A DNA stretch of 64,000 nt from contig JACRMB010000006.1 in NCBI GenBank assembly GCA_016235065.1, forward strand, positions 1-64,000. Direction: 5' to 3'. This document shows, one piece after another, positions 9,067 to 47,170 of the stretch (positions are counted from its first letter, which is position 1; every line of letters starts with the position of its first letter). The stretch comes from Actinomycetota bacterium. GTDB taxonomy: Bacteria > Actinomycetota > Thermoleophilia > BMS3ABIN01. A model generated the notes under the pieces. That model saw only the letters and a program-made list of their open reading frames with translations, did not search any database and was not told where the DNA came from. The position numbers and the translations under genes are program-made.

Positions 9067-11367
9067 ATGACTTACAACAGCCGCCAAAGAAGAGCCCGGC
9101 GCGGGACTTTCCCCCGGGCGAGAGCAGTCGCAGCCCTGGCGCTGCTTCTCCTGCTGGCGGCATCCCCTGCCATATCCGGCGCCTGGAACTCGGTGAGCGA
9201 AGGCCTTCCCTCCCTGGACAAGGAAGAAGCTTACCGTGCCACCGACGACACCGTCATCTACGATTCCAGCCCCACGCCCAACATCATCGCCGTGCTGCAC
9301 ACCGGCGAGAACCGGATGCTGCTCAAGCCTGAGGAGATCCCAGAGCAGATGAAGCAGGCGCTTGTGGTCATCGAGGACGACCGCTTCTACGAGCATTCGG
9401 GGGTCGATCCGATCGGCATGGCCCGCGCTGTCATGGCTAACTTCACCGAGGCCAAACTGGTCGAGGGCGGCAGCACCATAACCCAGCAGTACATCAAGAA
9501 CACCTACGTCTCCAACGAGCCGACCATGAACCGCAAGCTCAAGGAGGCGATCTACGCCTACGAGCTGGAACAGCGCTGGACCAAGGACCAGATCATCAGC
9601 GAATACCTCAACACGATCTACTTTGGCAATGGCGCCTACGGGCTGCAAGTGGCGTCAATGACATATTTCAACAAGGTGGTGTCGCAGCTGACCCTGCCCG
9701 AATTCGCGCTGCTGGCGGCGATACCCAAGTCACCCGTGGAGTTCTCGCCGTTCACCGAGCCGGAAGCGGCGACGGAGCGGCGCAACCTGGTGCTGGCCAA
9801 GATGCTGCGCCACGGGATGATCAGCCAGGAGGAATACGATTCGGCATCACAGGCGGCGCTGCCCGCACAGCCCTATCCGGTAGGCCCGGAGAGCAACGTC
9901 GCCCCCTATTTCGTGGAGTATATAAAGGAACAGCTGATCGCCCGTTACGGCACCAGACAGACTTTCGAGGGCGGACTGCGGGTCTTCACGACCCTGGACC
10001 TGGGGAAGCAGGCGGCGGCGGAAGGCGCGATCGCCTCGGTGCTCACCGAACCCGGTGACCCCAGCGCGGCGCTGGTCTCGCTGGAGCCGTCCAGCGGCTA
10101 CGTGCGCGCCATGGTCGGCGGCACCAACTTCACCGCGCAGAAGTTCAACGTGGCTACCCAGGGCCATCGCCAGCCGGGTTCGGCCTTCAAGCCGTTCGTG
10201 CTGGCGAGCGCCATGAACAAGGGGATATCCCCCGGGACGACCTTCGTCTCCGAACCCAAGCACATCAGCCTGGGCGGTGGCGGCGCCTTCTGGGATGTCA
10301 GCAATTTCGATTCGTTATATCTCGGGAAGATCAGCCTGGAGAAGGCCACCGTCTATTCGGATAACGCCGTCTACGCCGACCTGATGATGCGGGTGGGGCC
10401 GGGCTCGGTCGCCGACATGGCTCACGCGGCGGGGATCAAGACCAACTTCAGCTCCCAGCCGGCCATCGCCCTGGGCGGGCTCGACAATGGCGTCACGCCG
10501 CTGGAGCTGGCCTCGGCCTACGGCACTTTCGCCAACGGCGGGGTCAAGGTCACCGGCAGCATCGACTTCACCGGCAAGGGAGCAGACCCGATCTCGATAC
10601 TCAAAGTGACCGATTCGCATAACCAGGTCCTCGAAGAGAACAAGATCACGCCGGCGCTGGCGGTCGATCCGGTCATCGCCTATCACGTCAACAACACCCT
10701 CAAGAAGGTCGCCACGACGGGAACCAACCAGTGGAGCAACCTGGGCAGGCCCTGCGCCGGCAAGAGCGGCACTACCGAGGACCATGTTGACGCCTGGTTC
10801 TCGGGCTACACGCCGGACCTGGTGACGACGGTATGGGTGGGTTATCCGGGGCAGCGGACTTCGATGGTGGATATCCGCGGGGTGCGGGTCACCGGCGGCT
10901 CCTGGCCTTCCCAGATCTGGAACATATATATGACTCAGGCGCTGGCCGCGACCGAACCGCACGATTTCGTGAAGCCGCCGAACTCGGACCTGCAGATGGT
11001 CCAGATATGCTCGGATTCAGGCCAGCTCGCCAACAGCTGGTGCCCGAAGAAGGAATCGCGCAGCTTCTTCCCGGGACACCTGCCCACTGAGAAATGCACG
11101 CTGCACAAGGCTCAGGACCTGACCATGCCGAACATCACCGGGATGAAATTCGCGGACGCATACAAGACGGTCAGGGGCATGGGGCTGGAAGTGGATATCG
11201 CCTTCAAGTCAGACCTGACCAAACCGGCGGACACAGTAGTCGACCAGGTGCCGAAGGCGGGCGTTAAGGTGCGCCAGGGTTATAACCGGGTGACGATCAT
11301 CGTCGCCGGGAAGCCTGGCTCGGTGCAGGCGCCGGCTGAGGATAGCCCGGCTACTGAATGGGATTAG
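9067..11367 (+). CDS. Bifunctional class A penicillin-binding protein (PBP1A-like) with PASTA domain
   Basis: Protein of 766 residues from ATG 9067, where an Arg-rich N-terminus precedes a membrane anchor. The glycosyltransferase domain has EDDRFYEHSGVDPIG and GGSTITQQYIKN. The transpeptidase domain has the active-site SxxK in PGSAFKPF, the SDN motif in YSDNAVYADL, and KSGT as the KTG equivalent. A single PASTA domain follows (about residues 680-750: MPNITGMKFADAYKTVRGMG). It polymerises and cross-links peptidoglycan at the outer face of the membrane. An upstream in-frame TTG is possible, but the ATG fits the usual N-terminus better. Confidence 0.95.
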   Translation: MTYNSRQRRARRGTFPRARAVAALALLLLLAASPAISGAWNSVSEGLPSLDKEEAYRATDDTVIYDSSPTPNIIAVLHTGENRMLLKPEEIPEQMKQALVVIEDDRFYEHSGVDPIGMARAVMANFTEAKLVEGGSTITQQYIKNTYVSNEPTMNRKLKEAIYAYELEQRWTKDQIISEYLNTIYFGNGAYGLQVASMTYFNKVVSQLTLPEFALLAAIPKSPVEFSPFTEPEAATERRNLVLAKMLRHGMISQEEYDSASQAALPAQPYPVGPESNVAPYFVEYIKEQLIARYGTRQTFEGGLRVFTTLDLGKQAAAEGAIASVLTEPGDPSAALVSLEPSSGYVRAMVGGTNFTAQKFNVATQGHRQPGSAFKPFVLASAMNKGISPGTTFVSEPKHISLGGGGAFWDVSNFDSLYLGKISLEKATVYSDNAVYADLMMRVGPGSVADMAHAAGIKTNFSSQPAIALGGLDNGVTPLELASAYGTFANGGVKVTGSIDFTGKGADPISILKVTDSHNQVLEENKITPALAVDPVIAYHVNNTLKKVATTGTNQWSNLGRPCAGKSGTTEDHVDAWFSGYTPDLVTTVWVGYPGQRTSMVDIRGVRVTGGSWPSQIWNIYMTQALAATEPHDFVKPPNSDLQMVQICSDSGQLANSWCPKKESRSFFPGHLPTEKCTLHKAQDLTMPNITGMKFADAYKTVRGMGLEVDIAFKSDLTKPADTVVDQVPKAGVKVRQGYNRVTIIVAGKPGSVQAPAEDSPATEWD

Positions 11368-39578: not shown

Positions 39579-39781
39579 GAACCGGATTTCATTGCTGTTT
39601 CTGTCTAATGTATTGTAGCAGCCAAAAGGCCATAAGACGAACCGTTAGATGCGGGTCATCCATGAAGTAATACTGATACCTGTGTTAACATACATCTGAT
39701 CCACCGCGAAGGTGGCCACCGTCAAAGCGCTCAGACATAGCAAATTTATTCCTAAAAATACTTTCCTCTCCCAGGACGCTG

Positions 39782-40342
39782 ATTGATGAGAAGTCCTTCA
39801 CCGCAGATCAGGAATATATCTCCACCGGCCAGGCACTAGGGGAAAAAACCAGAAGACTCTTCAACGGATCCCTGGCGATCAGGGTGGTTACCGCCGGCTC
39901 GACCAATGCCTGTGAGCAGGAACTGGTCGCCCTGGGTAACCCATATTATGACGTGGAGCGCTTCGGCGTCCACTTCGTCGCCTCCCCCCGGCATGCCGAC
40001 ATGCTGATGGTCACCGGACCGGTCTCGCGCAACATGCGCGAAGCGCTGGTCAGGACCTACGAAGCCATGCCGGAGCCCCGGATCGTGGTCGCGGTCGGGG
40101 ACGACGCTATCGATGGCGGCCTCTTCAAGGGCTCTTATGCAGTGCTGGACGGCGTCCATAATGTGATCCCGGTCGACTACCAGATTCCCGGAGATCCTCC
40201 CTCCCCCAGGCGCATCATCGGTTCGCTTCTGGCTATCCTCGGCGATCTCGACGGCTCAGCCGTTAAGATTCCCGGCGACATTAACGGCCCGACAGTGAAC
40301 ATCCCCGGCGACCATGACGGCCCGACCAAGAATAAAGCCTGA
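39782..40342 (+). CDS. NuoB/HycG-like small subunit that lacks most Fe-S cysteines
   Basis: The frame shows clear small-subunit homology: RLFNGSLAIRVVTAGSTNACEQE, DVERFGVHFVASPRHADMLMVTGPVSRNM and PEPRIVVAVGDDA. Homology begins well before the first GTG (39884), so the true start is upstream. No ATG, GTG or TTG is in frame; ATT 39782 after AGGA is my best guess. The proximal 4Fe-4S ligands are degraded: CNGC reads TNAC, GSCA reads GDDA, PGCPP reads PGDPP, so only one of four cysteines remains. The C-terminus ends in a short tandem IPGDxxGPT tail. It is the first gene of the complex, six bases before the next. Confidence 0.8.
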   Translation: MDEKSFTADQEYISTGQALGEKTRRLFNGSLAIRVVTAGSTNACEQELVALGNPYYDVERFGVHFVASPRHADMLMVTGPVSRNMREALVRTYEAMPEPRIVVAVGDDAIDGGLFKGSYAVLDGVHNVIPVDYQIPGDPPSPRRIIGSLLAILGDLDGSAVKIPGDINGPTVNIPGDHDGPTKNKA

Positions 40343-40348
40343 TCCCGG

Positions 40349-42394
40349 ATGGATTTCCTTATCACGCCAGCCGCCTATCTCATCATGCTCGCTTTCTTTG
40401 CGGCGGGAGCCCTCGGCGCCCTGCTCCTCTGGCGTAATGACAGGGCAGCTAACGCCTGGAGCCACTGGCTGGCGATCGCGGGGTCAGCTGCGGGCCTGAT
40501 CTTTTCCGGCGCGGTTCTTTACAAAGGTGTGGCGCCATCGTTCGCCGCCGTCTCGTCGCTGCCACTGCTATCGCTATCCTTCCGGATCGACCGGCTTTCG
40601 GCGTTCTTCATGCTCGTGATCTCTCTGGTGGCGCTCGCCTGTTCCATCTATGCGCTCGGCTACGTCCGCCATTACTACGGAAATTACAGCATCGGTGTGC
40701 TGGGCTTCTTCTACAACATCTTCATCGCCAGCATGATCGCCGTGGTGACGGCTCACAACGCCCTTTTCTTCCTGATAGTCTGGGAAGTGATGGCGCTGGC
40801 CTCATATTTCCTTGTGGTATATGAGAACCGCGAGCCGTCGAGTATCAGAGCCGGCTCACTTTATTTCATCATGACCCATGCCGGAACGGTGTTCATCATC
40901 ATCGCTTTCCTGCTGATGTACCGCTGCGCCGGTTCGTTTGATTTCGGCGCGCTCAGAGACGGCCTCAGCGACGCCTCGCCGCTGATGAGGAATGCCATCT
41001 TCGTCTCGGCGCTGATCGGATTCGGAGCCAAGGCCGGGATCATCCCGCTGCATGTCTGGCTGCCGAGCGCACATCCCGCCGCCCCATCCCATGTCTCAGC
41101 CCTCATGTCAGGTGTCATGATCAAGACCGGCATCTACATGATGATCCGCATCTATCTCGACTTCCTGCCCGGCTCGTACCTCTGGTGGGGCCTGGCGCTG
41201 CTTGTCGCCGGCGCGATCTCCTCCCTGCTGGGAGTACTTTACGCCCTCTCTGAGAGCGATCTCAAAAGGATGCTCGCCTACAGCAGCATCGAGAACATCG
41301 GCATCATCCTGCTCGGGCTGGGAAGCGCGCTGGTATTCCAGTCCTTCGGGTTGGACTCGCTGGCTGCACTTGGCCTCGCGGCGGCGCTCTTCCATACCAT
41401 CAACCACGCTGCTTTCAAGGCGCTGCTTTTTCTGGGCGCCGGTTCGGTCATCAACGCGACCCATACGCGCAACATCGAAAAGTACGGGGGCCTGATAAAA
41501 GTGATGCCTCAGACGGCGTTCTTCTTCCTGATCGGATCGATCGCGATCGCCGCCCTGCCGCCGCTCAACGGTTTCTTCAGCGAGTGGCTGACCTTTCAGG
41601 CGCTGTTCCAGGGAGTCATGGCCTTCGATGTGGCCACCAAAGTCGTTTTCATCCTCGCGATTGGTTCGCTGGCCTTCACCGGCGGCCTGGCCGCTGCCTG
41701 TTTCGTCAAGGCGTTCGGCATCACTTTCCTGGCGCGCCCCCGCAGCGAGCAGGCAATGCACGCCAGTGAGTCAGCGCGCTCCCTGCTGGTGGCGATGGCT
41801 GGATTGTCGCTTGTCGTTGCCGGGCTGGGACTCTTCGCAGGCGTGGTCCTGGGTGAGCTGACGCCGGTAGCGGGCAGCCTCGCGAACCTTCGAGGCGCCC
41901 AGGCCGCCGATGTGGCCGGATTCAGGTCAGTCAGCATCGAGGGCGGATTCGCATCAGTCTCGATGCCAGCCCTCTTCTTCGGCCTGGCGGCCGTGATCGC
42001 CACCGTTGCTGTCGCGGTCAGGATTCTGGCCCGGCGCAGGAAGGTCAGGACCGGCCCCACCTGGGACTGCGGCACCGACCTCACCCCGCGCATGGAGATC
42101 AACGCTGAGGGATTCTCCCGCTCGCTGATCACCGTCATGCGGGGAGTGCTCAGGCCCAGCAGTGAGACCGAGATCGAGTATCACGACGCCAGTGGCTATT
42201 TCCCCCGGATCGGCACGGTCACCATGGGCCTGCACGACATCTATCAGACTTATATCTACAAACCCCTGCGGGACCTGACGACCATGGTCGCCGGCCAGGT
42301 GACGAAAGTGCAGAGCGGCAACGTCAACGCCTATATCCTCTACATCTTCCTGACCCTGATCGGCCTGCTGTTCTTCCTGGATGTGCAGTCATGA
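40349..42394 (+). CDS. NuoL/HyfB-like antiporter-type membrane subunit
   Basis: Protein of 681 residues with about 14-16 transmembrane segments. Key charged residues of the ion-translocating fold are kept: glutamate in VWEVMALASYFLVV, and lysines in GFGAKAGIIPLHVWLPSAHPAAPSHVSALMSGVMIKTGIY. The C-terminal part holds a long extension ending in a hydrophobic anchor, as in HyfB. In related complexes this subunit moves H+ or Na+. It overlaps a short frame at 42391. Confidence 0.9.
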   Translation: MDFLITPAAYLIMLAFFAAGALGALLLWRNDRAANAWSHWLAIAGSAAGLIFSGAVLYKGVAPSFAAVSSLPLLSLSFRIDRLSAFFMLVISLVALACSIYALGYVRHYYGNYSIGVLGFFYNIFIASMIAVVTAHNALFFLIVWEVMALASYFLVVYENREPSSIRAGSLYFIMTHAGTVFIIIAFLLMYRCAGSFDFGALRDGLSDASPLMRNAIFVSALIGFGAKAGIIPLHVWLPSAHPAAPSHVSALMSGVMIKTGIYMMIRIYLDFLPGSYLWWGLALLVAGAISSLLGVLYALSESDLKRMLAYSSIENIGIILLGLGSALVFQSFGLDSLAALGLAAALFHTINHAAFKALLFLGAGSVINATHTRNIEKYGGLIKVMPQTAFFFLIGSIAIAALPPLNGFFSEWLTFQALFQGVMAFDVATKVVFILAIGSLAFTGGLAAACFVKAFGITFLARPRSEQAMHASESARSLLVAMAGLSLVVAGLGLFAGVVLGELTPVAGSLANLRGAQAADVAGFRSVSIEGGFASVSMPALFFGLAAVIATVAVAVRILARRRKVRTGPTWDCGTDLTPRMEINAEGFSRSLITVMRGVLRPSSETEIEYHDASGYFPRIGTVTMGLHDIYQTYIYKPLRDLTTMVAGQVTKVQSGNVNAYILYIFLTLIGLLFFLDVQS

Positions 42395-42459
42395 GTCTGA
42401 TACGCCCGGAAACTGACGGCGCGCTCAGACAAATCGCGTTTGCCGGGGAGAGCCGATGA
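42391..42459 (+). CDS. 22-codon frame bridging the hyfB- and hycD-like genes
   Basis: ATG 42391 overlaps the stop of the upstream gene as ATGA, and its own stop (TGA 42457-42459) overlaps the ATG of the downstream gene. The sequence MSLIRPETDGALRQIAFAGESR shows no family. It may be a translational coupling element or a remnant; protein function is doubtful. Confidence 0.3.
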   Translation: MSLIRPETDGALRQIAFAGESR

Positions 42460-43391
42460 CGCTGACAGAAATAACCTGCTGGCTTCTGCAGCTCCTGCTT
42501 GTGCCGGCGCTGTCGCCGCTCTTCGTCGGGTTGACCCGCAAGCTCAAGGCGCGGCTGCAGAGCCGCCGGGGCGCCGGGATCCTCCAGCCATACCGTGACC
42601 TCCGCAAACTGTTCAACAAGGACGAGGTCATCAGCGAGGACGCCTCCTGGCTGTTTCGCGCAGCACCATATCTGATCTTTGCGGTCACCATCATCATCGG
42701 CGCCAGCATCCCGCTTTTCTCGACTGTGCTATCTAACACCTACACGGGGGATTTCCTGGTAGTGGTCTACCTGGTGGCTCTGGGGACTTTCTTCCTCGCC
42801 CTGGCGGGTCTCGATACCGGCGGCGCCTTCGGAGGCTTCGGCTCCAGCCGCGAGATGATGGTAGCTGCACTGACCGAAGGCGGCCTGGTGCTGTCGCTCC
42901 TGGTGCTGGCACTCATCAGCGATACCACCAGTCTCACCGGCATCTCCGAGAACATCGGCGACCTGTCGTTCACGAGTTTCACGCCTATCATCCTGGCATT
43001 TATCAGTTTCTCCATAGCCCTGCTGGCGGAGAACAGCCGCTACCCGTTCGACAATCCATCCACCCATCTCGAGCTGACCATGATCCACGAAGCCATGATC
43101 CTGGAGTATTCGGGAAAACGGCTGGCGCTGATCGAGTGGGCATCGGCCAACAAGTATCTGATCTTCATCGCTCTGGGAGCGAACCTGTTCTTCCCCTGGG
43201 GGATAGCCCACTCGCTCGACCTTCCGTCCATCCTGCTCGCGCTAGCGCTGCTGATCGTAAAAGTGACGCTTTTCTGCCTGGCGATCGCTATCATCGAATC
43301 CAGCATAGCCAAGCTGAGGATATTCCGTCTGCCGGACCTGCTGCTGACATCTTTTGTCATCAGCGTCATCGCCCTGGGTCTGGTGAGCTGA
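42456..43391 (+). CDS. HycD/HyfC-like (NuoH-type) membrane subunit
   Basis: Protein of 311 residues, eight predicted transmembrane helices. The conserved acidic stretch is AENSRYPFDNPSTHLELTMIHEAMILEYSGKR, the diagnostic HycD/NuoH motif that couples the peripheral and membrane arms. The N-terminal loop RRGAGILQPYRDLRKLFNKDEV is also typical. Confidence 0.95.
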   Translation: MTLTEITCWLLQLLLVPALSPLFVGLTRKLKARLQSRRGAGILQPYRDLRKLFNKDEVISEDASWLFRAAPYLIFAVTIIIGASIPLFSTVLSNTYTGDFLVVVYLVALGTFFLALAGLDTGGAFGGFGSSREMMVAALTEGGLVLSLLVLALISDTTSLTGISENIGDLSFTSFTPIILAFISFSIALLAENSRYPFDNPSTHLELTMIHEAMILEYSGKRLALIEWASANKYLIFIALGANLFFPWGIAHSLDLPSILLALALLIVKVTLFCLAIAIIESSIAKLRIFRLPDLLLTSFVISVIALGLVS

Positions 43392-43395
43392 CTCC

Positions 43396-44052
43396 ATGTC
43401 TCACCTGAACCAGCAGACCCTGTTACTGTTCGCAACTGTCATCTTCATGCCGGCGGTACTGCTGCACCTGACCCGGAAGAACACCGCCGCCGTCCTCCTG
43501 TATATGGTCCAGTCGTCAGCGATAGCCCTGCTGCTCGCCCTTTCATCGTTCGAACGTTTCTCGCCGCTGCTGCTCCTGGCAGTAGTCGCTACCGTGGCGG
43601 TCAAGCTCTTCATCGCGCCGTATTTCTTCTTTGGCCTGATCAAGCGGCACGAGCTGAGATTCTCAGTCAGCACTTACCTGAACACTCCCGTATCACTGCT
43701 GGTCATCGCCGCGCTGCTGGCGCTCACCCAGAGCGATTTCTTCGAGACCCTGGCGGTCCTGGCCCAGTCGAGCGAGGCGTCGCTGAGCCTGTGCTTCTCG
43801 ACCATCCTGATATCTCTGTTCCTGAGCATCAACCGAAGGGGCGCGCTCTCCCAGATGATCGGGATACTCTCGCTTGAGAACGGCATCGTCGCCTTCGCCC
43901 TTTTCGCCGGCCTTGAGCAGAGCCCGGGCCTGCAGCTGGGCGTGACATTCAACATCCTCATCTGGGTTGTGATCGCTACTGTCTTCGCCTCGATGATCTT
44001 CCGCAAGTTCGGCTCACTCGACGTCACCACCATGAAGAAGCTGAAGGGCTGA
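43396..44052 (+). CDS. HyfE-like (NuoK-related) membrane subunit
   Basis: Protein of 218 residues with about seven transmembrane helices. Conserved segments: FFGLIKRHELRFSVSTYLNTPVSLLVIAALLALTQ and QMIGILSLENGIVAFALFAGLEQ. It matches HyfE of hydrogenase-4 and the HycP product of mycobacteria. It lies four bases after hycD. Confidence 0.85.
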   Translation: MSHLNQQTLLLFATVIFMPAVLLHLTRKNTAAVLLYMVQSSAIALLLALSSFERFSPLLLLAVVATVAVKLFIAPYFFFGLIKRHELRFSVSTYLNTPVSLLVIAALLALTQSDFFETLAVLAQSSEASLSLCFSTILISLFLSINRRGALSQMIGILSLENGIVAFALFAGLEQSPGLQLGVTFNILIWVVIATVFASMIFRKFGSLDVTTMKKLKG

Positions 44053-44054
44053 GC

Positions 44055-45512
44055 GTGGCTCTCATCATCCTCATCGCCGCGCCGCTGCTCGCCGCCCTGG
44101 CCTCACTGGCGGTCCGGAAACGGGTCGCTATCCTCGAGCTGATCGCGGCGGTCACGGCTCCGATCGAATTCGCTGCGATCGTGGTGATCCTCAATGGGGT
44201 TTACCGGGATGGCCGCTGCGATTTTGGTACATATCTTTCGGCTGACGCCCTGGGTGCGGTCGTACTGATCACCATCGGCCTGGTCGGCCTGGCCGCGGCC
44301 TTCTATTCCATCGGATACCTGAGGGAAGAAGTGCGGAAGGAGATAATCGGCTTCAGCCGCGTTCGCCAGTACTGGGTGCTGTTCCATCTTTTCCTGATGG
44401 CGATGTTCTTCGCTGTCATAACCGTCAGCCCGATCATGATGTGGATCGCAATCGAGGCGACCACTCTCTCCACCGCTTTCCTTATCAGTTTCTATAACAA
44501 GGCTTCCTCCATGGAGGCCGCCTGGAAATATCTGATCATCAACTCGATCGGGCTGCTGCTGGGATTTTTCGGGACGCTGCTGTTCCTGACTCCCGAGCAG
44601 GGTTCAGGCATGGAAAAGTTCGTTGATTGGGCAGCGCTGGCTGAAAGCGCCAGCTCGATGAACCCGTCCCTGGTGAAGATCGCCTTCATATTCGTTCTGA
44701 TAGGTTATGGCACCAAGGTCGGCCTCGCTCCGATGCACACCTGGCTGCCTGACGCTCACAGCAAGGCGCCGTCGCCGATAAGCGCCCTGCTTTCAGGCGC
44801 GCTGCTCAACGTCGCCATGATGGCCATCCTCAGATTCAGAATCGTCGCCGACGGCGCCGTCTCGCCATCGTTCACAAGGAACCTGATGATATATTTCGGC
44901 GTCGTCTCGATCGCGATCCCCGCCTTCATCATCGTCGTCCAGAAGAACTACAAACGCCTCTTCGCCTATTCCAGCATCGAGCACATGGGCATCATCTCGC
45001 TGGGATTCGGCTTCGGCGGGATCGGCGCCTTCGGCGCCCTGCTGCATATGATCTACCACTCCATGGTCAAATCGGTGCTGTTCTTCTCCGCCGGCAACCT
45101 GTTGCTGAAATATGGGTCCACTAAGATATATAAGGTGAAGGGAGCACTTTCGGTGCTGCCGGTCACGGGCGTGGTTCTGATCGTGGGATTCCTAGCCATC
45201 ACCGGCATGCCGCCGTTCGGGATCTTTATTACTGAGTTCTACATACTGACTGCGGGCGTCACCGCCCATCTGCCGGTGGTGATCGGGGTGCTCTTCCTGC
45301 TGCTACTGGTGTTCGCCGGATTCCTCAAGCATATCGTCGGCATGATCTACCAGTCTGAGGCGGAAGTACCTGCGGAAACCAGCGGCGAATCCAACTTGCT
45401 GACAATAGTACCACCAGTATTATTATTGCTCCTGTTCATCGCCGCCGGTTTTTATCTGCCGGTGCCGGTCAGGTCGCTGATCGACTCAGCGGCCGCGATG
45501 TTAAATGGATAA
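44055..45512 (+). CDS. HyfF-like (NuoN/M-type) antiporter membrane subunit
   Basis: Protein of 485 residues from GTG 44055, with about 14 transmembrane helices. Conserved: MMWIAIEATTLSTAFLISFYN with its glutamate, and GYGTKVGLAPMHTWLPDAHSKAPSPISALLSGALLN with its lysine and histidines. These are the ion-channel residues of complex I-like antiporter subunits. Operon gap to upstream gene is two bases. Confidence 0.93.
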   Translation: MALIILIAAPLLAALASLAVRKRVAILELIAAVTAPIEFAAIVVILNGVYRDGRCDFGTYLSADALGAVVLITIGLVGLAAAFYSIGYLREEVRKEIIGFSRVRQYWVLFHLFLMAMFFAVITVSPIMMWIAIEATTLSTAFLISFYNKASSMEAAWKYLIINSIGLLLGFFGTLLFLTPEQGSGMEKFVDWAALAESASSMNPSLVKIAFIFVLIGYGTKVGLAPMHTWLPDAHSKAPSPISALLSGALLNVAMMAILRFRIVADGAVSPSFTRNLMIYFGVVSIAIPAFIIVVQKNYKRLFAYSSIEHMGIISLGFGFGGIGAFGALLHMIYHSMVKSVLFFSAGNLLLKYGSTKIYKVKGALSVLPVTGVVLIVGFLAITGMPPFGIFITEFYILTAGVTAHLPVVIGVLFLLLLVFAGFLKHIVGMIYQSEAEVPAETSGESNLLTIVPPVLLLLLFIAAGFYLPVPVRSLIDSAAAMLNG

Positions 45513-45535
45513 CTGATACGGAAGTCTGACTAGTG

Positions 45536-47170
45536 ATGCAAATAACTGAAATCATCAAGCGATATATCCCCCACTACGCGGAAGCGACAAGCCACGGACG
45601 ACTGATCACTTTCGAGGTGCAGCCGAGCGAGATCGTGGCTGTTGGCGAGAGCCTCTACACCCACCACCAGACGCCGCTGAAGATCATCACCGCTTTTGAC
45701 GAGCGGCAGGAAGGCGGCAAGTTCCGGATCATGTATGTGTTCGGGCTGCCCGGCGAGAACCTGTTCCTCGCGCCATACATCATGGTGGATGAAGAATTCC
45801 CGTCACTGACCCCATCGTTTCATGAGGCGTCTATCTACGAGCGCAAGATCAGAACGTTCTTCGGTCTGAGACCTGCCGGCCATCCGAACCCGCGGCCGCT
45901 GATCCTCCATGAGAACTGGCCCCAGGATTTATTCCCCCTGCGAAAAGATTTCGACTGGCGGTCGAGACCGGAAACAGCCACAAGTGATTTCCAGTTCAGG
46001 AAGCTCAGCGGTGAGGGCATCTATGAGATCCCTGTCGGACCTGTTCATGCCGGCATCATCGAGCCCGGCCACTTCCGCTTCAGCGTCGCAGGCGAGGAGA
46101 TACTGCTTCTGGAGCCAAGGCTGGGCTATTCCCACAAGGGTAGCGAGAAGCTGTTCGAGGTATTGCCGATAGCCGACAAGATCAGGCTGGCGGAACGTAT
46201 CTCCGGCGACAGCAGTTTCAGCCACGCGCTGGCGTTCTGCCAGGCGCTGGAATCGTTGAGTGATATGGCGGTGCCAGAGCATGACGAATATTTGCGCCTG
46301 GCTTTCTGCGAACTGGAGCGCCTGGCCAACCACCTTGGCGACATCGGCGCCATCATGACTGACACCGGCTTCAACTTCGGTGGCGCCCAGTGCGGCCGCC
46401 TGCGGGAGGCCGTCATGCAGCTCAACGAACGGCTCACCGGCAGCCGCTTTCTGAGGGGCATCGTAAAAGTCGGTGGCGTCAGCCATGACATCCAGGCGAA
46501 CATCTCAGTCGAGACAGCGGATGAAACCATCGCCTTCCTCGGAGCCCTAAGGAAGGATTTCGACGAGGTGATAGCGGTCGCCGCAAGAAGCAACACTCTG
46601 ACCGACCGGCTGACGAATGCTGGTGTGCTTTCACATTCGATAGCCTGCGACCACGGGGTACTCGGAGTCGCCGGCAAGGGATCAGGCATGGCTGCCGATG
46701 CCCGCGTCGATTATCCCTACGGGGCCTATCATAAGATGAACGTCGAGGTCTGCACGGAACAGGATGGCGATGTCCATGCCAGGTTCAGTGTGCGGATCAG
46801 GGAAGTGCCTGGCTCTATCGAGATGATATGTCAGGCGCTTGGCGAGCTGATGCACGCAAGGACTGACCGACCGCTACATGATAAAGTCTATCCTCCGACC
46901 CTGACCCGGTCGTTAGAGTTCGAAACCGAGTCGGATTCGATCCCGTTAAAGAAAGATGCCTTCGCGATCGGCATCGTCGAAGGCTGGCGCGGCGACATCG
47001 TCTACCTGGTCGCCACTGATGCCAGTGGAAAGATCAGCCGGGTCGACGTGCGCGATCCCTCATTCCTGAACTGGACGGCACTGGGTTATGCCGGGCAGGA
47101 TAACATGGTCCCTGACTTCCCCCTGATCAACAAGAGCTTCAATCTGTCTTATTCAGGGAACGACCTTTAA
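45536..47170 (+). CDS. HycE/HyfG-like large subunit (NuoC-NuoD fusion) lacking Ni ligands
   Basis: Protein of 544 residues. Residues 1-150 form the NuoC-like domain (EEFPSLTPSFHEASIYERKIRTFFGL). The NuoD/HycE-like core follows (PVGPVHAGIIEPGHFRFSV, RLGYSHKGSEKL). The L1 motif reads ERISGDSSFSHALAF where hydrogenases have RxCGxC, and the L2 motif reads DPSFLNW where they have DPCxxC. All four cysteines are lost, so a NiFe site is not possible. A GTG three bases earlier is an alternative start. The gene terminates the operon. Confidence 0.92.
   Translation: MQITEIIKRYIPHYAEATSHGRLITFEVQPSEIVAVGESLYTHHQTPLKIITAFDERQEGGKFRIMYVFGLPGENLFLAPYIMVDEEFPSLTPSFHEASIYERKIRTFFGLRPAGHPNPRPLILHENWPQDLFPLRKDFDWRSRPETATSDFQFRKLSGEGIYEIPVGPVHAGIIEPGHFRFSVAGEEILLLEPRLGYSHKGSEKLFEVLPIADKIRLAERISGDSSFSHALAFCQALESLSDMAVPEHDEYLRLAFCELERLANHLGDIGAIMTDTGFNFGGAQCGRLREAVMQLNERLTGSRFLRGIVKVGGVSHDIQANISVETADETIAFLGALRKDFDEVIAVAARSNTLTDRLTNAGVLSHSIACDHGVLGVAGKGSGMAADARVDYPYGAYHKMNVEVCTEQDGDVHARFSVRIREVPGSIEMICQALGELMHARTDRPLHDKVYPPTLTRSLEFETESDSIPLKKDAFAIGIVEGWRGDIVYLVATDASGKISRVDVRDPSFLNWTALGYAGQDNMVPDFPLINKSFNLSYSGNDL

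Follow-up and report, generated by a model that had tools for sequence, protein, structure and literature searches.

Replacement of the N2 cluster ligands in an energy-converting hydrogenase-related complex of an Actinomycetota bacterium

Energy-converting hydrogenase-related (Ehr) complexes have been described, in the passages that deal with them, by a large subunit that lacks the Ni-Fe-binding cysteines (PMC6349859, PMC10284858). In the corresponding parts of the literature their roles are called unknown or are merely suspected (PMC6349859, PMC10284858, PMC6728331, PMC7304191, PMC7894505, PMC10432482). In Geobacter, Ehr subunits were reported at higher abundance in the presence of formate, and a connection with formate dehydrogenase (FDH) was suggested (PMC7894505); an FDH-Ehr complex has also been proposed (PMC6349859). 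Both proposals are redox readings, made for other Ehr. A paper of 2013 on Ehr (Marreiros et al.) is cited in one of these sources (PMC6728331). Here we describe a six-gene Ehr-type cluster in a stretch of 64,000 nucleotides (positions 1 to 64,000 of contig JACRMB010000006.1, assembly GCA_016235065.1; hereafter the window) from an Actinomycetota bacterium of the class Thermoleophilia, in which not only the Ni-Fe ligands but also most ligands of the N2 cluster, the last redox centre of the complex, have been replaced. In the initial annotation of the window this cluster had been put forward as a candidate for an undescribed system. The family itself has already been described as Ehr, and it is the loss of the N2 cluster that appears to be new. 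The literature searched, which did not cover the text of Marreiros et al. 2013, contained no paper on Ehr without N2 ligands, so that priority is uncertain.

By alignment to relatives, the Ni-Fe cysteine positions of the large subunit (P0006) were found to be S224, S227, S539 and G542, a Ni-Fe-less pattern that is common among other Ehr. The four N2 ligand positions of the small subunit (P0001), located in the same way, are T41, C44, D108 and D138 (TCDD), whereas four cysteines are the usual state in Ehr. Only one of the eight ligand cysteines of the two sites, C44, has survived. No CxxC motif could be detected in the six proteins (15 Cys in total) or in the aligned parts of the sets of seven relatives (10-16 Cys each), no ferredoxin domain was present among ten proteins scanned in the window flanks, and Pfam gave no match to a nucleotide- or flavin-binding domain in any of the six. 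Several statements of the initial annotation are borne out by these results, namely that the six genes follow one another in the order small subunit-HyfB-HycD-HyfE-HyfF-large subunit at 39782-47170 (all are co-directional, with matched families), that neither catalytic subunit could bind Ni-Fe or the N2 cluster (7/8 ligand cysteines replaced), that no ferredoxin or other redox module is visible, and that the membrane subunits keep their channel Glu and Lys residues, which are intact in the window and show a lone exception, HyfF E394 replaced by Lys, in two relatives. The Ni-Fe and N2 sites are gone, and conservation and purifying selection extend over the remainder of the complex. An absence of HypD was considered as the cause of the cofactor loss and rejected, since a HypD gene, the one maturation gene searched for, and [NiFe] hydrogenase large-subunit genes are present in the source genome. 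One of these hydrogenase genes (L147, contig C3:30184-31653; labels beginning with L and G denote loci and genomes) has a single in-frame TGA, situated exactly within the DP-x-x-x-C motif at the C-terminus (DP*MAC), and so may encode a selenocysteine-containing [NiFeSe] hydrogenase.

The set resembles several described systems in part. With Ehr it shares the large, small, HycD-type and HyfB/HyfF-type subunits and the missing Ni-Fe cysteines; other Ehr copies, including that of the ZPP plasmid pRZP3, have all six subunits and the large-subunit motifs R-x-SGD... and SY(S/A)G(H/N)DL, but keep all four N2 cysteines. A Ni-Fe site and a proximal cluster, together with Fe-S and formate dehydrogenase subunits, are found in formate hydrogenlyase. 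None of these centres and redox subunits is visible in the window's set, of which the E. coli enzyme is the best solved relative (PDB 7z0s; large subunit, E = 7.1e-67; small subunit, E = 1e-28), and the two CxxC motifs of the group 4 [NiFe] hydrogenase large subunit are absent. Complex I of the source genome, of which a NuoD gene with complex I-type neighbours was found on contig C2, is alike in its NuoB/D/H and antiporter-type subunits, and HyfB residues E146, K228, H349, H353 and K357 are identical in its own NuoL/M-type row. The six genes of the window differ in having neither an NADH module nor an Fe-S chain ending in N2, whereas the genome's own NuoB (L049) keeps its cysteines. Mrp cation/H+ antiporters are a non-redox use of the antiporter module, defined by MrpE/F/G-type subunits and not known to have a NuoB/NuoD-like peripheral arm; they share the Proton_antipo_M family with HyfB and HyfF, both of which are assigned to it by Pfam in the window, where a NuoB/C/D-like arm is present as well. 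MBS (a sulfane sulfur reductase; PDB 6u8y) is also a complex I-family member without a Ni-Fe centre, and the part of its description that concerns the catalytic proximal [4Fe-4S] cluster places it on three cysteines, with the ligand 1 equivalent non-coordinating (PMC7684303). MBS keeps proximal, medial and distal clusters, and MBS/Mbx complexes have a ferredoxin-like subunit; in contrast, the window's set also lacks ligands 3 and 4, so that only C44 is left, and shows no other cluster site and no ferredoxin-type subunit in the operon.

The same state recurs in other genomes. In a survey of N2 ligand states, in which at most the best 30 loci per search were examined, cluster-less small subunits of the window's clade were found in 11 genomes, with the patterns TCDD (8), DCDD (1), DADD (1) and DADN (1). 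The DADD and DADN members (L179 and L180) have no Cys at any N2 ligand position, the equivalent of C44 being Ala. Six of the carriers belong to one actinomycetotal family and five to the class containing a Syntrophobacterales metagenome-assembled genome (MAG; L053/G424). The cluster-less type is present in 6 of 19 genomes examined from the window's GTDB family and in 5 of 7 within the genus; among 399 genomes drawn from the class and 396 from the phylum, matches above 300 bits came solely from the window's family (6 and 2 genomes, respectively), and the class of G424 has the type in 5/155 genomes. Close relatives have been deposited as Thermoleophilia or Actinomycetes MAGs. An artefact or contamination was rejected as an explanation, since the state recurs in 11 genomes and the out-of-phylum genome G424 has four further relatives in its class. 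In the DCDD copy (L178, 8396-10476, genome G1179), HyfB appears to be split into two overlapping frames by a frameshift or a sequencing error.

A quick tree of 81 rows, with Shimodaira-Hasegawa-like approximate likelihood ratio test (SH-aLRT) values and no bootstrap, placed the window's set with other Ehr and apart from active group 4 hydrogenases and complex I. The SH-aLRT value was 97 for the 48-row Ehr group and 100 for the 11-row cluster-less clade. Two loci were left out of the tree (L131, whose large subunit is missing from the stretch, and L109, with broken genes), the contig pieces L034 and L146 of G005 were joined as one row, and L177, with a small subunit and part of HyfB only, covers 28% of the tree columns. 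Since the clade is nested inside the Ehr with four N2 cysteines (CCCC), the cluster-less state is read as derived.

The specificity of the change was examined against 40 other Ehr (L085-L089, L094-L100 and L112-L140 minus L131), which comprise four from alphaproteobacterial plasmids, one from Cupriavidus metallidurans CH34, seven actinomycetotal loci, of which two belong to a genus that we regard as mycobacterial, and another 28 loci from the phylum of G424. All 40 have CCCC at the N2 ligand positions. Among 38 small-subunit columns that are at least 90% conserved in these rows, exactly three, namely ligands 1, 3 and 4, lack the conserved residue in every one of the 11 clade rows, and none of the 74 large-subunit columns conserved to the same degree has been lost clade-wide (one clade row is without a large subunit and another is partial in this count). 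A second comparison, of 10 clade with 14 cluster-bearing rows, found the same three replacements among 36 invariant small-subunit columns, together with clade-specific replacements in invariant columns of HyfB (2/66), HycD (2/45), HyfE (4/9), HyfF (5/51) and the large subunit (2/81). The small subunit is altered clade-wide at the cluster ligands only. Beside ligand 2, position 46 is Gln in 11/11 clade rows and Leu, Ala, Val or Ile in the 40 other Ehr.

Three more actinomycetotal small subunits without the cluster ligands were identified, with the patterns DEDS (L105), DDDS (L107) and DIDD (L184). They group apart from the clade in the tree; joining all cluster-less rows was rejected by an approximately unbiased (AU) test (p = 1e-40), and parsimony over 77 of the 81 rows, with four CCPS rows left out, required a minimum of two losses of the N2 cluster, although these results come from a quick tree with long branches and no bootstrap and the AU test was chosen after the tree had been inspected. 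Position 108 is Asp in 14/14 cluster-less rows (the 11 of the clade and these three). One ferredoxin-like cysteine set is, by eye, still fused to the small subunit in L105 and L107, whereas the window's clade has none. On these grounds the cluster-less state is taken to be a derived variant of Ehr with a convergent second case. Two tandem Ehr-like sets are present at L184 (G796:C8), the first with a CCCC small subunit and the second (9087-9587) with DIDD.

The ratio of nonsynonymous to synonymous substitution rates (dN/dS, Nei-Gojobori) was 0.039-0.149 over 17 gene pairs in three comparisons, that is, 0.039-0.125 between the window and G005 (five of six genes), 0.071-0.149 between the window and G004, and 0.043-0.110 between G002 and G003. 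All six genes are under purifying selection, and a pseudogene reading is argued against by these low values. Residues of the putative ion path, E146, K228, H349, H353 and K357 of HyfB, E134, K221, H335 and K339 of HyfF, and D99, E141 and E281 of HycD, show no variation among the clade rows in which they are covered, L178-L180 included. For each of them, no fewer than 11 of the 12 other Ehr rows have the same residue. Of 11 loci further removed, four (L103 and L039-L041) carry Gly or Ala in place of E134 of HyfF.

Taken together, the absence of a visible redox module, the intact ion path and the purifying selection make a coupled non-redox machine the best reading of the locus. With a probability of about one half, the window's set would be an Ehr complex without its last redox centre and with no metal or Fe-S site of known type in its peripheral arm, functioning as a cofactor-free, non-redox, ion-translocating relative of complex I. 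Electron transfer through the arm would be absent in such a complex, which would work without the passage of electrons. The former cluster pocket may be filled by an acidic and polar network (T/D41, D108, D/N138 and Q46) or by a hard metal ion that holds the arm in shape, and the large-subunit loop GPVHAGIIEPGHFRF, together with the HycD interface, could plausibly form a ligand-dependent or conformational switch on the intact proton path. The complex might then be run by an existing ion gradient and be opened or closed by ligand binding or a conformational change in the region of the large subunit, the small subunit and HycD. The weakest step is the identification with a gated, gradient-driven secondary H+ or H+/cation transporter, which is the likeliest specific form of the complex but must be considered doubtful.

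Several points weigh against this reading. The clade-specific residues in HyfE (4/9), HyfF (5/51) and the large subunit (2/81) indicate that, over the complex as a whole, change is not restricted to the cluster site. The loop GPVHAGIIEPGHFRF is conserved as in cluster-bearing Ehr and would also fit an organic redox ligand. Without a driving reaction the membrane subunits could only dissipate a gradient unless they are gated, and no MrpE/F/G-type match was found among the six proteins in NCBIfam and Pfam, so an exchanged ion is not indicated. Position 394 of HyfF, a channel residue, holds Glu in the window and in seven clade rows, with Lys instead in L179 and L180, and dN/dS is higher (0.14-0.33, with dS 0.7-1.5) between the window and the Syntrophobacterales copy. 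Redox-type genes lie 1-8 kb from the cluster in 4 of 10 relatives' stretches, none of them common to the clade. AlphaFold2 models of the small and large subunits (five rows each) reached a mean predicted local distance difference test score of 46.2 and 49.3, respectively, and were not used. As a separate observation, the two members with Lys at position 394 are the same two that lack all four N2 cysteines.

The initial annotation had envisaged a coupled ion-translocating complex driven by a partner, by conformational input or by a quinone-like ligand. The coupled complex agrees with the missing redox module, the intact ion path and the purifying selection, whereas the partner has found no clear support: across the window and nine relatives (ten stretches in the latter, several of them on short contigs; G1171, a 3.85-kb contig, left out), no gene beyond the six is common to the whole clade, and a conserved neighbour as the missing partner was rejected. 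The redox-type genes nearby encode, in L035, a DUF362+Fer4 protein (about 1.4 kb from the cluster), in L178 a Fer4_11 protein (about 1 kb, with an NrfD gene), in L179 a c-type cytochrome (about 1.7 kb) and in L053 a RACo-type protein with Fer2 (about 8 kb); since they vary from copy to copy, none is read as the missing input. By annotation or motif scan, no ferredoxin gene was found beside the cluster-bearing operons L085-L089, L094-L097 and that of Rhodococcus. The typA/bipA gene, for a translation GTPase, adjoins or lies near the cluster in several genus members, and no six-gene cluster is present in the 13-kb stretch examined around typA of G006, a non-carrier that is 78% complete. Of the other neighbours, ABC-2 transporter genes and one of CvpA/trypsin-like type are repeated in just a few members of the genus or family.

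Among the alternatives, the former N2 site may hold another centre through oxygen ligands, such as a mononuclear site (Fe or Mn) or a cluster ligated in part by Asp, and still be redox-active. The invariance of Asp at position 108 in the 14 cluster-less rows of two lineages would suit such a centre, as would T or D at position 41 and D, N or S at 138, and the three-cysteine proximal cluster of MBS, as described in the relevant part of the source, offers a precedent for a non-coordinating ligand 1 equivalent (PMC7684303). However, the position of ligand 2 is variable (C, A, I, D or E), the four positions are entirely free of Cys in two clade members, and no further centre that could serve as a feeder is visible in the operon; this explanation seems unlikely. 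For the whole clade, alternative Fe-S ligation is argued against by the DADD and DADN members. It is likewise improbable that the conserved chamber of the large subunit binds an organic molecule, as cofactor or substrate (a quinol, a flavin, F420 or some other hydride carrier), that undergoes two-electron chemistry without Fe-S clusters. Such a ligand would be in keeping with the large subunit, in which none of the 74 conserved columns has been lost throughout the clade and residues such as H172, E177, D226, N537 and D544 are shared, but the Pfam matches of the six proteins include no nucleotide- or flavin-binding domain.

Pumping could also be driven, through conformational change only, by a redox protein, soluble or membrane-bound, that is encoded elsewhere and docks on the arm. 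The redox-type genes found 1-8 kb from the cluster in four of the ten stretches from relatives (L035, L178, L179 and L053) might be taken as a sign of such a protein; on the other hand, these genes differ among copies, no neighbour beyond the six is common to the clade, and the cluster-bearing L085-L089, L094-L097 and Rhodococcus operons are also without an adjoining ferredoxin gene by annotation or motif scan, and we regard a docked partner as quite improbable. That the set is a decaying or purely structural remnant, retained for assembly or regulation without ion transport, is very improbable. Although 2 of the 7 genus genomes have no match, the 13 kb around typA in G006 lack the cluster and HyfB of the L178 copy is split in two frames, dN/dS is 0.04-0.15 within the family, the channel residues are intact, the set is found in two distant taxa, and the N2 cluster has been lost repeatedly with the rest kept.

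The wider distribution of Ehr provides a context for these findings. Outside Actinomycetota and the phylum of G424, four N2 cysteines are present in 6/6 plasmid records (Rhizobium, Bradyrhizobium, Ciceribacter, Methylovirgula, Cupriavidus and Azospirillum), and the Rhodococcus and Azospirillum plasmid copies keep all four in the printed proteins (Azospirillum by eye). The order of the six genes had been likened in the initial annotation to that of Rv0082-Rv0087 of M. tuberculosis, and it recurs in four actinomycetotal loci (L094-L097) and on the Rhodococcus plasmid. The parallel with Rv0082-Rv0087 would be limited to order, since all five of these order-matched relatives keep the four N2 cysteines. 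Unlike in the window, the small-subunit gene comes last in the Ehr of Rhizobium and Cupriavidus, and a small helix-turn-helix (HTH) regulator gene stands in front of the operon in three alphaproteobacterial plasmid Ehr (L086, L087 and L088, on rhizobial and methylotroph plasmids). More distant Ehr-like loci (L039-L041, L101-L103, L105, L107 and others) were held apart from the 40 comparison Ehr; partial N2 changes occur in distant Ehr-like small subunits, with CCPS in four genomes and CCCN in two (L058-L061, L101, L102; L039, L040). In the window's class, another group of loci (L042-L047, L066 and L072) has the same subunit types, with CCCC, once CDCC, at the Ni-Fe positions and N2 kept or nearly so; it is possibly an active group 4 hydrogenase of a separate branch.

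The features of the locus are collected in Table 1. The source genome has 2.37 Mb and is 98.9% complete, and the intergenic gaps of the cluster are 6, 61, 4, 2 and 20 bases. The HyfE-type assignment of P0004 had a score of 48.7 bits against a cut-off of 136, with no Pfam match. For the small subunit, the reading frame is open from 39689 and homology extends back to about 39746, and no ATG, GTG or TTG start was found upstream of the core, the first being a GTG at 39884. Within this region (39689-39884), the ATG of relatives (G002 and G003) corresponds to TTA in the window and G005 and to CTG in G013, and the residues after it are conserved; the start codon may be an unusual one, or the start may have been set wrongly. 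In its C-terminal tail (40250-40342) the same protein contains a short degenerate repeat, IPGD..GPT, which is missing from four aligned relatives.

Table 1. Genes of the six-gene cluster and N2 ligand positions of its small subunit
Feature	Position	Strand	Remarks
Small subunit P0001, NuoB/HycG-like	39782..40342	+	NCBIfam and Pfam: NuoB/Oxidored_q6
HyfB-like antiporter-type subunit P0002	40349..42394	+	NCBIfam; E146, K228, H349, H353, K357 kept
HycD/NuoH-like subunit P0003	42456..43391	+	NCBIfam and Pfam NADHdh; D99, E141, E281 kept
HyfE-like membrane subunit P0004	43396..44052	+	Weak family match
HyfF-like antiporter-type subunit P0005	44055..45512	+	NCBIfam; E134, K221, H335, K339, E394 kept
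Large subunit P0006, HycE-like NuoC+NuoD fusion	45533..47170	+	NCBIfam and Pfam
T41, N2 ligand 1 position	39902..39904	+	Cys in 40/40 other Ehr
C44, N2 ligand 2 position	39911..39913	+	Ala in 2/11 clade rows
D108, N2 ligand 3 position	40103..40105	+	Asp in 14/14 cluster-less rows, Cys in 40/40 other Ehr
D138, N2 ligand 4 position	40193..40195	+	Cys in 40/40 other Ehr

Ehr complexes are found in many lineages, and their function is stated to be undetermined or unknown in the passages on them (PMC6728331, PMC10284858). A natural clade that keeps the large-subunit and channel residues and has three or four of the N2 ligands replaced amounts to an evolutionary experiment on the need for electron transfer, and it suggests that the Ehr family may not work by electron passage. 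Tentatively, and with odds somewhat short of even, the complex could be a non-oxidoreductase of the complex I superfamily. Its peripheral arm would then serve as a gate or sensor, free of cofactors, that drives or regulates the passage of protons through an intact membrane arm of the antiporter type, and the cluster would have been lost in no fewer than two lineages. Extended to Ehr as a whole, those of mycobacteria and rhizobia among them, this reading would make the core function independent of electron transfer through N2. The clade also bears on complex I itself, namely on how much of the ion-moving machinery may operate uncoupled from redox chemistry.

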